Below are positions 56,177 through 61,616 of a DNA stretch of 64,000 nucleotides, piece after piece. Position 1 is the first letter of the stretch. Each line of letters opens with the position of its first letter. Source of the stretch: Chloroflexota bacterium (GTDB taxonomy: Bacteria; Chloroflexota; Anaerolineae; Anaerolineales; Villigracilaceae); assembly GCA_013388855.1 (NCBI GenBank), contig JACAEM010000008.1:62001-126000 (forward strand), read 5' to 3'. A model generated the notes under the pieces. It did no database searches, was not told the origin of the DNA, and worked only from the letters and a program-made list of their open reading frames with translations. The translations under genes were made by a program, and so were the position numbers.

Positions 56177-57121
56177 CTACAGTGACTTGACTCTCAGCCA
56201 AAGGCTTGGAATTCGACTCAACTTGCCAAGAGCGCCCAGGGAAGCACGTCGGCTAAACACATCGTAATCATGTCTTTCGATGTCATCGAGGATGCCCTGA
56301 TAAAAAACGGACGCGGCACCAATGGCGAGCTGCCCTTCCCGTTCCAACATTTTCACGCCTGCCCACGATTCTTCGTAGAGGTGCCGCGTCCGTTCGATTT
56401 GGAATTTCATGAATTGTCTCCAGTTGTCGGTCACACAACCCTCGGCAATATCCTGCTCACGGATGCCGTAGAACGTCAATTCTTCGCGCGGCAGGTAAAG
56501 ACGTCCGCTGCGATAGTCTTCACCAACATCACGCAGGATATTGGTCATTTGCAGGGCAACACCTAGTTTGATGGCATATGGGACAGCATCATTGTTCTTG
56601 AAACCGACAATGTACATGCTCATCAATCCCACCGTGGAAGCAACGCCATAGCAATATGTGGCCAGTTCGTCAAAGGTTTGGTAACGCGCCTGAAGGAGGT
56701 CGCGTTGGACGCCGTCGATGAGTTGCAGGGCGTAGTGGCGGGGAATGTGGTAACGGGTGAGAGTATCTGCCCATGCGGCAGCGACCAGGTCATTTTCTGC
56801 GAAGGAGCCGGTTTCGATCATCCGACGCCAGTAATCGAGGCGGGATTCGCGTTCATCGTCCGTTGATTCATCCACAATATCATCCACCGTGCGGCAAAAA
56901 GCATATAGGGCGCGGACTGCGGAGCGTTTCTCTTCGGGCAACAAGCCGGATGCAAAGTGAAAAGATTTGCTGTGTTCGGCGGTAATGACCTCAGCATGTT
57001 TGTAAGCCTGCCGTAGAGCGACATCGCCAGCCCAGTAGGAAAAGAATGGGCGGGTCGAAGGATGAGGGGCATTGCCGGCGAGGGCAAGTAATTGGTTTTC
57101 CCAGTGTGCTTGTGCTTGCAT
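56177..57121 (-). CDS. crtB: Phytoene (squalene/phytoene) synthase
   Basis: Condenses two geranylgeranyl diphosphates to phytoene, the first committed step of carotenoids. Both aspartate-rich motifs are present: DDIVDESTDD (81-90) and DVGEDYRSGRLYLP after NILR (about 200-218). Length (314) is normal. It has AGGAGCC before the start and a consensus promoter divergent from crtI. Squalene synthase is the alternative, but the adjacent desaturase favours phytoene synthase. Confidence 0.92.
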   Translation of the reverse strand: MQAQAHWENQLLALAGNAPHPSTRPFFSYWAGDVALRQAYKHAEVITAEHSKSFHFASGLLPEEKRSAVRALYAFCRTVDDIVDESTDDERESRLDYWRRMIETGSFAENDLVAAAWADTLTRYHIPRHYALQLIDGVQRDLLQARYQTFDELATYCYGVASTVGLMSMYIVGFKNNDAVPYAIKLGVALQMTNILRDVGEDYRSGRLYLPREELTFYGIREQDIAEGCVTDNWRQFMKFQIERTRHLYEESWAGVKMLEREGQLAIGAASVFYQGILDDIERHDYDVFSRRASLGALGKLSRIPSLWLRVKSL

Positions 57122-57148: not shown

Positions 57149-57189
57149 ATTGTATATATTTCACTAATTTTGTCAAGGTTTTGTAAAGG
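57149..57189 (-). promoter_or_regulatory. crtB promoter with two 11-bp repeats
   Basis: On the minus strand TTGACA (57171-57176) and TACAAT (57149-57154) are 16 bases apart. CCTTTACAAAA and CCTTGACAAAA (57168-57189) are consecutive 11-bp direct repeats that cover the -35 box and the bases just upstream. Their nnTnKACAnnn form recalls Thermus CarH sites. Confidence 0.75.
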
Positions 57190-57202
57190 AAAATTTTTTC
57201 AA

Positions 57203-57232
57203 TATTGACAAATATTAGACAACACATATAAT
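57203..57232 (+). promoter_or_regulatory. crtI promoter with two 11-bp repeats
   Basis: TTGACA (57205-57210) and a perfect TATAAT (57227-57232) are 16 bases apart. TATTGACAAAT (57203-57213) and ATTAGACAACA (57214-57224) are two consecutive 11-bp units with GACA in register, spanning the -35 box and spacer. They are likely CarH-type operator sites. Confidence 0.75.
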
Positions 57233-57275: not shown

Positions 57276-58814
57276 ATGACCAAACCAACAGCCCTTGTGA
57301 TCGGCGCCGGCATTGGCGGAATCGCCACCGCCGCCCGGCTTGCCAAAAATGGATATGACGTGACCGTGCTCGAAAAGGAATCGACTCCCGGCGGACGCTG
57401 TAACCAGATCGTCCGCGACGGTCACCGATTCGACATCGGACCGACGCTGTTCCTCATGCCCGAGATCTGGGAGGAGACCTTTGCTTCTCTCGGCGAAAAG
57501 ATGAGCGACCATCTCGCCCTGAAGCGCATCGACCCGACCTATAAAGTCCACTTCGATGACGGCTTGCAACTGGCGCTGACGTCCAATATCGGTGACATGC
57601 AAACCCAGCTCGAAAAAGTGGAAAAGAGCGCCTTTACCGGTTTCTTGAACTACATTGCCGAAGGAAGCAAGCACTACAAACTCTCGGTGGAAAAGTTCGT
57701 CGGGCGGAACTTCTACAGTCTCTTCGAGTATTTCAGCCTCGCCAACCTGCCGCTCATCGTGCAACTCAAGGCGCTGCAAAAGCACTACGCCAACACGGGT
57801 CGCTTCTTCAAGGACGAGCGGCTCAAAGCCGCGTTCACGTTCCAGAATATGTACCTGGGTCTCAGCCCTTACGACGCGCCTGCCACCTACTCCCTGCTCC
57901 AATACACGGAACTCGCGGAGGGCGTGTGGTACCCGATGGGCGGGATGTACGCCGCGATTCAGGCGTTGGTGAATGTGGCGGAACGGTTGGGGGTGAGGTT
58001 TGTGTACAACACGGCTGTCAAATGTTTGAACGTCGAACGTTCGAACGTTCAACGAGTGCATAGCGCCACCCTCGAAGACGGACGCGAGTTGACGGCGGAT
58101 ATTTTCATCGGCAACGCAGACCTGCCCTACATCTACAAAGAACTCCTTCCCGACCGCGCCGAAGCCGAAAAACTGGATAAGAAACTCTACACCTGCTCCA
58201 CCATCATGTTCTACTGGGGCGTGGACAAGCAGTATCCGCAAATTGCCCACCACAACGTCTTCCTCGGCGGCGACTACAAAGCCTCCTTCGACCGCATCTT
58301 CAAGGATCACACCCTGCCCGAAGTGCCGTCGTTTTACGTTCACGCGCCCGCCCGCACTGACCCCGCCGCCGCGCCCGCAGGTCAGGACACGCTTTACGTC
58401 CTCGTCCCCGTCGGTCACCTCGACGCGCGTACCGCTCAGGACTGGGACGCGCTGGTCCGCCGCGCCCGCGAGACCGTGTTCGCCCGCCTCGCCAAAGAGA
58501 TGGGCGTCACCGACCTCAGGGAGCACATCAAGTTCGAGATCGTGTACCAGCCCAAAGTCTGGAAAGAACGCTTCAATCTGGAGAAAGGCGCGGCGTTCGG
58601 GCTGAGTCACAACTTTTGGCAGGTCGGTTATCTCCGCCCACACAATCGTCACGCCAAATATAGAAATCTCTACTTTGCAGGCGCGTCCACCCACCCCGGC
58701 ACAGGACTGCCCATCGTCTTGCTCTCCGCCCGCCTGACCACTGAGAGGATTCTGAAAGAAAAGGGTACAATAGCTGTGCAAAAGGTGAATCATCCCGCCT
58801 TGAAGCCAGCCTAA
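57276..58814 (+). CDS. crtI: Phytoene desaturase
   Basis: A CrtI-type flavoprotein that introduces double bonds into phytoene. The N-terminal Rossmann dinucleotide-binding motif VIGAGIGGIATAARLAKNGYD with EKESTPGGRC is typical; a C-terminal FAD-contact motif NLYFAGASTHPGTGLPIVL is at about 465-485. Length is 512. AAAGGAAAA precedes the start. The number of desaturations cannot be told from sequence; lycopene is the usual product. The CarH-like regulator follows after 21 bases, in a probable operon. Confidence 0.93.
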   Translation: MTKPTALVIGAGIGGIATAARLAKNGYDVTVLEKESTPGGRCNQIVRDGHRFDIGPTLFLMPEIWEETFASLGEKMSDHLALKRIDPTYKVHFDDGLQLALTSNIGDMQTQLEKVEKSAFTGFLNYIAEGSKHYKLSVEKFVGRNFYSLFEYFSLANLPLIVQLKALQKHYANTGRFFKDERLKAAFTFQNMYLGLSPYDAPATYSLLQYTELAEGVWYPMGGMYAAIQALVNVAERLGVRFVYNTAVKCLNVERSNVQRVHSATLEDGRELTADIFIGNADLPYIYKELLPDRAEAEKLDKKLYTCSTIMFYWGVDKQYPQIAHHNVFLGGDYKASFDRIFKDHTLPEVPSFYVHAPARTDPAAAPAGQDTLYVLVPVGHLDARTAQDWDALVRRARETVFARLAKEMGVTDLREHIKFEIVYQPKVWKERFNLEKGAAFGLSHNFWQVGYLRPHNRHAKYRNLYFAGASTHPGTGLPIVLLSARLTTERILKEKGTIAVQKVNHPALKPA

Positions 58815-58835: not shown

Positions 58836-60161
58836 ATGGTAAGTACAACCCCCGTCTTTAACCTCAAAGTGGTCCTCAAAGAGACAGGCCTGCCTGCCGA
58901 CACGTTGCGCGCCTGGGAACGCCGCTATGGCTTGCCCGTACCTCAACGCACCCCCGGCGGGCACCGTCTTTATTCGGAACGCGACATCCAGATCATCAAG
59001 TGGCTGATGGCCCGCCAGATGGAGGGACTTTCCATTTCGCGTGCGGTGGATCTGTGGAACGAACAGGTCGCCTCAGGCTCCGACCCGCTGGCTGGTCTGT
59101 CAACTTCGAGCCTTGCCGCCGTTCAGACGGGTTCTGCTCCCCATATCACCTCCGAAACAACCCTCGACGCTCTGCGCTCGCAATGGGTGAATGCCTGCAT
59201 GAACTTCAACGAAACCGCTGCCGAACAGACCTTGAATCAGGCATTCTCCATGTTCCCCATCGAAGCCGTATGCGTGGAAGTCCTGCAAAAGGGCATGTCG
59301 GAGATCGGCGGCATGTGGTACGAGAACCGCGCCAGCGTTCAGCAGGAACATTTTGCCTCCGGGCTGGCCATGCGGCGGCTGGACGCGCTCTTGATCGCCT
59401 CCCCCGCCCCTTCGCGTCCCCATACCGTATTGGTGGGATGCCCTCCGAACGAGTGGCATACCTTCACGCCGCTCCTGCTTGCCCTTTTCCTGCGCCGCCG
59501 CGGGATCAATGTCATTTATCTGGGCGCCAACGTTCCTCCCGCGCATTTCGAAGAGACGGTACAAAGTGTGCGCGCCAATCTCGTCATCCTCGTCGCGCAG
59601 ACCCTGACCAGCGCTGCCCACCTGCAACACACCGCCAACGTACTTTCCAACAAAGGTATCACTGTCGGATATGGCGGGCGCATCTTCAACATGCAGCCAG
59701 AAATCCTTTCCTACATCCCAGGGCATCATCTCGGCAACGACGTTTCCGCCTCTGTCAACGAAGTGGAACTAATCCTAAACAACAGGCGCAAACCGCTGAA
59801 ACTCAAAGCCGCCTCACAGGAGTACGTCGCCGCCCATCATTTTTTCCTCTCCAAACGCGCCGAGATCGAAACGACTCTGCGTACGCTCGTCAAACCCCTG
59901 CGCATTTCCAGCGAAGATTACCAGACCGGTATGCAATTCCTCGGCGACAATATCGCATCCGCCCTCTCCCTCGGCAATATCCACTATGCATCCGATGAAA
60001 TGGAGTGGGTCAAATTCCTGCTCCATGCCTACGACCACCCCGATGAGGAGTTGATAGGCTTCATCAACGCCTATGCCAAAGCCATCGACAAGCACATCAA
60101 CGGCGCGGGCGAACCCATCAAGCGTTGGCTGGCGGAGGAGGTTGCAAAATTACATGCGTAG
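58836..60161 (+). CDS. carH: CarH-like B12-dependent MerR-type photoreceptor-repressor
   Basis: A 441-residue protein with a MerR winged helix (about 8-75; AWERRYGLPVPQRTPGGHRL), a four-helix B12-binding cap (about 110-190), and a cobalamin Rossmann domain (195-320). Three light-sensor features are seen: W161, then nine residues, then E171-H172 (Wx9EH), and E206-W-H208 (ExH), where the histidine is the expected lower cobalt ligand. A C-terminal extension of about 110 residues is unassigned. It should repress the crt genes in the dark as a tetramer bound to AdoCbl. The crtI operon would put it under its own control. Confidence 0.88.
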   Translation: MVSTTPVFNLKVVLKETGLPADTLRAWERRYGLPVPQRTPGGHRLYSERDIQIIKWLMARQMEGLSISRAVDLWNEQVASGSDPLAGLSTSSLAAVQTGSAPHITSETTLDALRSQWVNACMNFNETAAEQTLNQAFSMFPIEAVCVEVLQKGMSEIGGMWYENRASVQQEHFASGLAMRRLDALLIASPAPSRPHTVLVGCPPNEWHTFTPLLLALFLRRRGINVIYLGANVPPAHFEETVQSVRANLVILVAQTLTSAAHLQHTANVLSNKGITVGYGGRIFNMQPEILSYIPGHHLGNDVSASVNEVELILNNRRKPLKLKAASQEYVAAHHFFLSKRAEIETTLRTLVKPLRISSEDYQTGMQFLGDNIASALSLGNIHYASDEMEWVKFLLHAYDHPDEELIGFINAYAKAIDKHINGAGEPIKRWLAEEVAKLHA

Positions 60162-60291: not shown

Positions 60292-61188
60292 ATGACAAAC
60301 AAAAGCAACTTGATGAAACCAATTGACTTTAAATCCCTTCTGATTCTTCCGCTTCTCATCCTCATCGGCTTCCTCGTCGCGCTGGCGGGAAGCCAGGGCG
60401 GCGCGACGCTTGGCGGAGTCCCCGTCTTCGCGCTCGTGGTCGCGCTGGCGTTCCTCATTCAATGGCTGGTCTTCATCCCTGCTTATATTTTCCAGACCGA
60501 AAAATACTTCGACCTGACAGGCAGCATCACCTACATCACTGTGATAAGTGCCGCGCTGTGCTATACCCGCTACACCGTCCCGTTGGATGCGCGCTCGTTC
60601 CTTGTTGCGGCGTTGGTCAGTGTCTGGGCGGTTCGGCTCGGAGCGTTCCTCTTCAGCCGCATCCGCAAGGCGGGCAAAGACGACCGTTTCGACGAAATCA
60701 AGCCGAATTTCCTGCGCTTCCTCAACGTGTGGACCATTCAAGGGCTGTGGGTGACCTTCACCGCCGCGGCGGCGCTAGTGACCATCACCTCCGCCACGCG
60801 CAAGGGACTGGACGCGTTCGCCATCGTCGGCGCGCTGGTGTGGGTCATCGGCTTCGCCATCGAAGTCATCGCCGATGCGCAGAAAAGCCGCTTCAACGCC
60901 GACCCATCCAACAAGGGCAAGTTCATCTGCACAGGATTGTGGTCGCGCTCGCGGCATCCCAACTACTTCGGCGAGATTGTCCTGTGGATCGGCATCGCCA
61001 TCATCGCCATCCCTGTTCTGCAAGGCTGGCAGTGGATCGCCATGATCTCGCCGCTCTTTGTGACCTTGCTTCTCACCCGCGTCAGCGGCATTCCCCTGCT
61101 TGAGAAGAAAGCAGACGCGAAATGGGGCGGGCAGGAAGAGTACGAAGAATACAAGAAGAACACACCCGTTTTGATCCCGCGGCTGTAA
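60292..61188 (+). CDS. DUF1295 steroid 5-alpha-reductase-like membrane protein
   Basis: A 298-residue protein from ATG 60292, after discounting 20 codons of repeat. About six or seven hydrophobic helices and the DUF1295/ICMT-like C-terminal motif CTGLWSRSRHPNYFGEIVLWIG and EYEEYKKNTPVLIPRL. Proteins of this type are reductases or methyltransferases using NADPH or SAM. It follows the CarH-like gene; a role in carotenoid tailoring is possible but not shown. Confidence 0.85.
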   Translation: MTNKSNLMKPIDFKSLLILPLLILIGFLVALAGSQGGATLGGVPVFALVVALAFLIQWLVFIPAYIFQTEKYFDLTGSITYITVISAALCYTRYTVPLDARSFLVAALVSVWAVRLGAFLFSRIRKAGKDDRFDEIKPNFLRFLNVWTIQGLWVTFTAAAALVTITSATRKGLDAFAIVGALVWVIGFAIEVIADAQKSRFNADPSNKGKFICTGLWSRSRHPNYFGEIVLWIGIAIIAIPVLQGWQWIAMISPLFVTLLLTRVSGIPLLEKKADAKWGGQEEYEEYKKNTPVLIPRL

Positions 61189-61196
61189 ATAATTCA

Positions 61197-61244
61197 CCAC
61201 GGAGACACATATTTTAAATTCTCCATGACACCGTGTCTCCGTGG
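61197..61244 (+). repeat. Inverted repeat between DUF1295 and DUF4345-like genes
   Basis: CCACGGAGACAC and GTGTCTCCGTGG are perfect complements separated by 24 A/T-rich bases. It may be a terminator-like or transcript-end structure. Confidence 0.65.
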
Positions 61245-61271
61245 CAAAGACTTCACTTCAAAAGGAAATCA

Positions 61272-61616
61272 ATGACCTTCCTCAAAATTCTCCAACTCAT
61301 CGCCGTCCTGCTCACCATCGTGACGGGATTCGTTTCCCTCCTCTGGCCGCGCAGTGTGCAAGGCTTCACGGGGCTGACTGCCGCTGATGGGCGCGGCATC
61401 ACTGAGATCCGCGCCATCTTTGGCGGACTGTTCATCGGGCTGGGTCTCGCCGTCTTTGTGCTGGCGACGCGCGAAGTCTATCAGGCGCTCGGCATCATGT
61501 ACCTCGCCATCGCCGCCGTGCGTCTCGTCTCCATCTTTGTGGATAAGTCCTCCGTCCAATCCAATTGGATCAGCGTCGCCACGGAGATCATCATGGGAAT
61601 TATTCTCGTTCTTTAA
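61272..61616 (+). CDS. DUF4345-like small membrane protein
   Basis: A 114-residue protein starting at ATG 61272 with AAAAGGAAA upstream. Four hydrophobic helices are visible (about 5-25, 44-62, 66-82, 92-112), with the LTAADGRGITEIRAIFGGLFIGLGL segment typical of DUF4345-like proteins. Function is unknown. It precedes the MFS gene. Confidence 0.72.
   Translation: MTFLKILQLIAVLLTIVTGFVSLLWPRSVQGFTGLTAADGRGITEIRAIFGGLFIGLGLAVFVLATREVYQALGIMYLAIAAVRLVSIFVDKSSVQSNWISVATEIIMGIILVL

Follow-up and report, generated by a model that had tools for sequence, protein, structure and literature searches.

Published CarH operators consist of tandem 11-bp TnnACA repeats lying across the -35/-10 region (PMC9304148), with the consensus given as nnnnTnnACAn in that paper and as nAnnTnnACAn in PMC8156234. 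It has been documented that two tandem repeats are enough for stable binding of one CarH dimer, as in Cystobacter; that an intact Wx9EH motif distinguishes CarH from CarA; and that in Thermus CarH the His following the Trp serves the bis-His light state (PMC9304148). Among the photocobilins, the full-length form of 8j2y binds AdoCbl fully, and one member shows weak biliverdin binding (PMC10979010). According to the same paper, Schneider et al. 2022, in their work on photoglobins, proposed roles in transcription-factor regulation, and the MerR-B12-photoglobin fusion architecture may already be listed there. Statements taken here from PMC9304148, PMC8156234, PMC10979010 and PMC10147662 refer to those portions of the papers that were available.

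We analysed a carotenoid locus within a window of DNA (the whole stretch under study, 64,000 nucleotides). The crtB gene (56177..57121, minus strand) encodes a 314-aa protein of the phytoene/squalene synthase family (SQS_PSY, Pfam 5.8e-77), whose exact product is not settled because all six listed NCBIfam models score below their cut-offs. The divergent crtI gene (57276..58814, plus strand) encodes a 512-aa protein of the phytoene desaturase family (TIGR02734, 499.8 bits, cut-off 238.1). A carH-like gene (58836..60161, plus strand) begins 21 bp past the crtI stop codon and encodes a 441-aa regulator with a MerR HTH domain, a B12-binding domain and a C-terminal globin/phycobiliprotein-like domain. 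DUF1295 and DUF4345 proteins are encoded downstream of carH, at 60298-61185 and 61233-61613 of the window.

The 154 bases that separate crtB from crtI carry two divergent promoters with consensus-like hexamers. The crtB promoter (57149..57176, minus strand) has a -35 box TTGACA at 57176-57171, a spacer of 16 bp and a -10 box TACAAT at 57154-57149, and the crtI promoter (57205..57232, plus strand) has TTGACA at 57205-57210, again a 16-bp spacer, and TATAAT at 57227-57232. An earlier note had proposed that each promoter is overlaid by a pair of adjacent 11-mers and that all four fit nnTnKACAnnn, and direct reading of the sequence bore this out; the four 11-mers also match TnnACA. The crtB-side operator (57168..57189, minus strand) consists of the upstream 11-mer CCTTTACAAAA (57189-57179) abutting CCTTGACAAAA (57178-57168), which contains the -35 box. 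The crtI-side operator (57203..57224, plus strand) consists of TATTGACAAAT (57203-57213), with the -35 box inside, abutting ATTAGACAACA (57214-57224), which lies within the spacer. The -35 box is thus placed inside one repeat on either side. The results of pattern searches showed that only two TNKACA pairs with 11-bp spacing exist in the 64-kb window, both at the crtB/crtI promoters, and that two of the three TnnACA pairs with this spacing are found there as well. The pattern TNGACAN5TNGACAN5TATAAT had a single match in the whole 4.03-Mb genome, the crtI promoter region, and a strict Thermus-like triple repeat (three copies of NNTNTACA) had 0 matches in the whole genome. Judged from the sequence, the paired 11-mers are real operators of the CarH kind, with protein binding to them inferred.

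A close counterpart is found in Thermus thermophilus. The crtB-carH intergenic region of strain SG0.5JP17-16 reads TGTACA-11-TTGACA(-35)-11-TATACG, closely resembling the crtB side of the window, and the two systems share tandem 11-bp TnnACA repeats, a -35 box in the second repeat and a crtB gene adjoining the switch. The Thermus-like operator that the earlier note had suggested stood as far as this layout is concerned, but the repeat form it had given, nnTnTACAnnn, differs from the published TnnACA. Unlike the Thermus case, the present locus has two divergent operators, and the repeat order is reversed at crtI, where the -35 repeat comes first. It had also been claimed that the arrangement is simpler than the three repeats of Thermus; each promoter indeed carries a pair, but the claim remains uncertain because a third TnnACA, TATACA, stands at 57156 on the crtB side, 20 bp from the -35 motif. 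Myxobacterial CarH operators (the divergent crt promoters of Sorangium, and Cystobacter) share the divergent crt promoters, a variable number of TnnACA repeats and the sufficiency of two, whereas a single operator has been suggested there for both promoters and here one pair serves each (PMC9304148, available portion). The Bacillus megaterium CarH operator likewise has tandem 11-bp repeats across -35/-10, but with four repeats, or three plus one degenerate, in the available portions of PMC8156234 and PMC9304148.

We then compared the region among relatives. Relatives of crtI at E <= 1e-200 were present in 57 of 152 family genomes, giving 58 loci (one genome contributes a second copy, L054); crtB was divergent from crtI in 54 of them, and in 55 a CarH match lay downstream of crtI in the same orientation. 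Intergenic regions were taken from 53 of the 58 loci, leaving out L041 (long gap), L048 (contig end) and L079-L081 (other arrangement), and repeat positions were counted relative to the best promoter of each region. The crtI spacer repeat was found as TnnACA in 46 and as TnKRCA in 48 of the 53 regions, while the crtB repeat upstream of the -35 box matched TnnACA in only 16 and TnKRCA, which allows G at the A position, in 41. With both strands pooled, the regions contained 66 TnnACA pairs 11 bp apart compared to 0.8 expected from dinucleotide shuffles, and 0 and 3 pairs at the neighbouring distances of 10 and 12 bp; minor peaks occurred at distances of 9 (10 pairs) and 20 (13 pairs) and at some longer ones, such as 45 (16 pairs). 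The 11-bp spacing and the motifs persist in most of these regions, so that the condition which the earlier note had named as refuting, a loss of the spacing in close relatives, did not come true. In the crtI spacer copy the information content was 1.9 bits for T, 1.5 for A, 2.0 for C, 1.8 for the final A and 1.0 at the K position, compared with 0.0-0.6 bits in the non-motif columns 10, 12 and 18-21 and 0.8-1.1 bits in columns 8, 9 and 17. At the crtB promoters, a minority carried TnKRCA at +9 (7/53) or +20 (9/53).

At the level of whole genomes, the crtI-type pattern occurred in 61 of the 152 family genomes compared to 2 for a reversed-pattern control, and the crtB-type pattern in 45 compared to 0. 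A carH match was present in 56 of the 61 crtI-type and 43 of the 45 crtB-type genomes. Kinship among the genomes inflates these conservation counts, so that independent sites carry more weight; moreover, each crt pair includes the -35 box as one of its halves. The divergent crt region with its operators was present in two copies within one genome or assembly in G139 (L040, L054) and in G090 (L077, L086). The best-scoring spacer was 16 bp in 50 of 53 crtI, 51 of 53 crtB and 32 of 32 fasciclin (FAS1) promoters, the last of which are described below. A common promoter-like site, TGGACAAATCATTGACAAAAT..TATAAT, was seen in two genomes that lack a carH match (L094, G146:C195:586-624; L095, G147:C65:90953-90991).

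The regulator contains a MerR DNA-binding domain (residues 11-73, 58866..59054, plus strand; Pfam, alignment) with the sequence RAWERRYG, and a B12-binding region (residues 116-289, 59181..59702, plus strand) with W161-x9-E171H172 and E206-W-H208. For the alignment, 50 of 57 extracted proteins were used; truncated or short ones were left out, and L036, which is broken into pieces, was not extracted. RAWERRYG, W161, E171, H172, E206 and H208 were invariant in the 50 orthologues. The CarH signature is therefore represented by RxWERRY, by Wx9EH and by the lower axial His, for which the His of ExH stands at the aligned position. Within the B12 motif D/ExHx2G/P...SxT/V...GG, ExH and GG were invariant in the 50 sequences, T stands at the G/P position and V-A-Q at SxT/V; aligned with the regulator, photocobilin 8j2y has S at the first place of SxT/V. 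The nearest NCBIfam equivalog, CarH NF052513, scored 144 bits, below its cut-off of 400, and the residue following the Trp is Tyr, not the His present in many CarH proteins. We rejected the identification as CarH sensu stricto, since the protein falls below the NF052513 cut-off and lacks the bis-His residue. The CarH-like neighbour of the earlier note was upheld as a MerR/B12 protein with the CarH signature, and revised from a plain CarH to a long form resembling the photocobilins, a variant of the CarH kind.

A one-genome-per-species scan for relatives of the regulator was evaluated for the best 80 of 584, from which L195 was not extracted. Among the 43 proteins of at least 400 aa, the residue after the Trp was Y or F in 38 and H in 3, including L196 and L204, whose matches to the query reach only residues 317 and 331; of the 36 shorter proteins, 16 had E there and 11 had H. 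The tblastn matches that reached the C-terminal domain, among these best 80 of 584, were L154-L195. Their record titles name groups that we take to belong to the Chloroflexota. Because the scan covered the best 80 of 584 relatives, long forms outside this phylum are not excluded.

The C-terminal helical domain (residues 328-440, about 113 residues, 59817..60155, plus strand) was assigned a photocobilin/phycobiliprotein-type fold from predicted models. In the AlphaFold model of the regulator (mean pLDDT 89), residues 328-440 formed a well-predicted helical domain. Foldseek and VIA searches with the whole chain gave the photocobilins 8j2w, 8j2x and 8j2y as the best PDB matches, ahead of CarH: VIA aligned 318 residues to 8j2w (model 108-441, Z 30.1, rmsd 2.7), whereas CarH 5c8e reached Z 23.4 across 203 residues. 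When the domain was modelled separately (pLDDT 91.6), Foldseek returned 0 matches at E <= 0.001, with phycobiliproteins as the best rows at E 0.02-0.1, and VIA gave Z values of 10-13 with phycobiliproteins, the biliverdin-binding smURFP, the RsbR globin and photocobilin. Since the domain is helical, the matches of its isolated model are suggestive and only supportive; the match of the whole chain weighs more. Searched by sequence against the PDB, the C-terminal 153 residues gave no match up to E 10, and Pfam searches of 41 domain copies found no consistent family, with at most 2 of 41 for any one model. The fold assignment rests solely on predicted models and on a profile that picked up 8j2y, with no solved structure.

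The shared and differing features of the described proteins are as follows. T. thermophilus CarH/LitR (PDB 5c8d/5c8e) shares the MerR and B12 domains, Wx9EH and ExH, but has nothing beyond the B12 domain and carries a His directly following the Trp, whereas the present regulator has the additional helical domain and Tyr. The photocobilins SasPcob and AbDPcob (8j2w, 8j2x, 8j2y) share the succession of a B12 domain and a globin-like bilin domain, as well as a non-His residue after the Trp; SasPcob is standalone and AbDPcob carries a diguanylate cyclase, as far as the available portion of the source goes, whereas here an N-terminal MerR domain and candidate operators are found. Bilin binding is an inference. 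W391, which aligns with the bilin-contact Trp (AbPcob Trp289, numbering matched by us), was invariant in the 50 orthologues and present in at least 90% of the 41 domain copies, and no Asp was found at the place aligned with the biliverdin-binding Asp270 of SasPcob, where the alignment is gapped. Heme oxygenase PF01126 was not found in the genome that contains the window and was found in 1 of the 152 family genomes; bilin supply is therefore not assured, although other bilin routes lay outside the search.

Operators were also found upstream of carH itself. Among 20 family loci in which carH comes first and has no crtI before it, 16 showed a TnKRCA pair no more than 300 bp upstream, compared to 1.3% expected from the remainder of those same loci; the other 4 showed looser copies by eye. 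This tally excluded L093 (short form), L135, L137 and L139 (crtI before carH) and L144 (16 bp flank). A second set comprised 40 more distant long-form carH genes from named records for which 150 bp or more upstream was available, among the best 80 of 584 relatives. A pair was present within 350 bp upstream in 17 of these (2.8% expected), and in 8 more it preceded a crtI gene located before carH (L154, L155, L157, L158, L161, L164, L179, L186). The remaining 15 loci had no pair either within 350 bp or before crtI; 14 had none in the fetched DNA, and L171 had one only inside carH. Some of these 15 have short flanks, and L172 is a clear miss, with the crtB-crtI-carH arrangement yet no pair. The Flexilinea record L195 retained a crtI-like layout at merely 34% identity. 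At the sites with a pair, the operator follows carH to other genomic positions.

Outside the crt region, matches to the crtB-type pattern were seen in three genomes from the genus, in every case directly upstream of a gene for a fasciclin protein; the one case run contained Pfam PF02469 three times. By our own reading of the N-termini, with no predictor behind it, these proteins are secreted. FAS1 relatives at E <= 1e-25 were found in 31 of the 152 family genomes; each of these 31 also has a carH match and 30 have crtI, while a carH match was present in 89 of the 152 overall and 27 of the 57 crtI genomes had no FAS1 match at this threshold. We took upstream regions from 32 of 34 loci, some genomes giving two (the fragments L100 and L126 were left out). 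A pair of TnnACA or TnKGCA at 11 bp was present in 31 of the 32 regions, with 51 pairs compared to 0.3 expected, and in 28 of 29 regions without the discovery cases (L098, L099, L084). Strict TnnACA pairs numbered 13, in only 9 of the 32 regions, and the best -35 box was exactly TTGACA in 19. Measured from the -35 box, TnKRCA stood at +9 (20/32), +20 (8), +29 (6), +40 (23) and +51 (21), giving steps of 9-11-9-11-11, in which the +20 copy fuses with the -10 box. The 11-bp ladder is what the available portions of the literature describe, and the 9-bp step is our own observation. The genome that contains the window has two FAS1 genes with CarH-type tandem repeats upstream, at G000:C15:142431-143934 (L082:3932-5435) and near 91000 of G000:C17 (L128), and counterparts in relatives have up to six motifs on the 9/11-bp lattice (for example L114). 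The regulon likely extends to the fasciclin genes, with control being inferred.

We consider it probable that the two pairs are CarH-type operators, each over one divergent sigma-70-type promoter and bound by the regulator encoded behind crtI. This rests on the observed repeats, their conservation, the linkage to carH, the conserved B12/light residues and the predicted domain architecture. By inference, in the dark an oligomer of AdoCbl-bound regulator would occupy the tandem TnnACA-type 11-mers at both promoters, covering the -35 box and spacer at crtI or the -35 box and upstream DNA at crtB and thereby blocking RNA polymerase. Light would break the Co-C bond of AdoCbl, the oligomer would dissociate, and crtB, crtI and carH would be expressed; with carH co-transcribed from the crtI promoter, the repressor would be autoregulated and reset. 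DNA binding, dependence on AdoCbl and light, repression and the oligomer state are all inferred, and the same regulator would probably control the FAS1 genes elsewhere in the genome. That the repeats might be no more than conserved -35 boxes with a chance AT-rich resemblance has in its favour that the -35 hexamer forms one half of each pair and fits TnnACA alone; but the other half is conserved at spacer or upstream positions that ordinary promoters leave free, the FAS1 promoters carry the unit as far away as +40 and +51, and the paired motif tracks carH, which leaves this explanation with hardly any credibility.

Binding by a regulator other than the carH product also seems very improbable. 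The link between the carH product and the repeats is inferred without biochemical data, and five crtI-type genomes as well as two crtB-type genomes (G146, G147) lack a carH match at E <= 1e-30; on the other hand, the motif and its 11-bp spacing are the published CarH unit (PMC9304148, available portion), the operator precedes carH itself in most loci where carH comes first, and no second homologue of the carH product turned up in the genome at E <= 1e-5. A regulator that binds the operators without being an AdoCbl light sensor, either CarA-like and B12-independent or responding to another ligand through its C-terminal domain, could explain the partly degenerate B12 motif and the Tyr replacing the bis-His residue. 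We regard this as unlikely, since Wx9EH and the His of ExH are invariant in 50 sequences and the photocobilins 8j2w and 8j2y, the closest structures, in which Gln and Tyr follow the Trp in the alignment, are photoactive, as given in the available portion of PMC10979010. An AdoCbl-dependent CarH-type switch remains the preferred reading.

A further extension of the CarH-type switch is offered tentatively, and we hold it to be doubtful: dual-chromophore repressors, combining MerR with a complete photocobilin (B12 plus bilin), may control both carotenoid synthesis and fasciclin proteins as possible carotenoid carriers in Anaerolineae, with operators on the 9/11-bp lattice (9-11-9-11-11 from the -35 box at FAS1) wrapping whole promoters and repeat pairs about two helical turns apart. 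The algal fasciclin protein AstaP binds carotenoids, and the cyanobacterial homologue tested did not, according to the available portion of PMC10147662. Because that homologue bound none, a carotenoid role of the present proteins is only a guess, and cell adhesion is the default expectation.

The operators themselves are of the known CarH kind. Among the matches listed in a search of open-licence literature, we did not see operators in Anaerolineae, their attachment to a MerR regulator of photocobilin-like build, the targets encoding fasciclin proteins or the 9/11 lattice; titles and starts of abstracts there showed no Anaerolineae CarH operator and no link between CarH and fasciclin. For many uncultured Chloroflexota, the analysis provides an operator defined by sequence together with a candidate regulon, and it connects an architecture of the photocobilin type with DNA sites and target genes. 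It thereby becomes possible to test directly whether a transcription factor can make use of a bilin-type chromophore as its second one, and why this regulator lacks the bis-His residue of CarH. Through the fasciclin link, a surface protein induced by light becomes a candidate open to testing, and, if the regulator works, a new short optogenetic promoter/regulator pair would be available.

Finally, a loose operator pattern was searched in the genome that contains the window and gave 33 matches, compared to 12 for the reversed control. Matches at 29 loci were looked at, 20 of them under an ORF of at least 100 aa, and three matches were left out. The own-genome loose matches examined revealed no convincing target beyond crtB, crtI and the two FAS1 genes. 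One site, TGTACAAGAATTGTACA at G000:C15:38475-38491 (L239), lies outside ORFs and has a pair motif readable on both strands; it could be a further target or the palindrome of another regulator.
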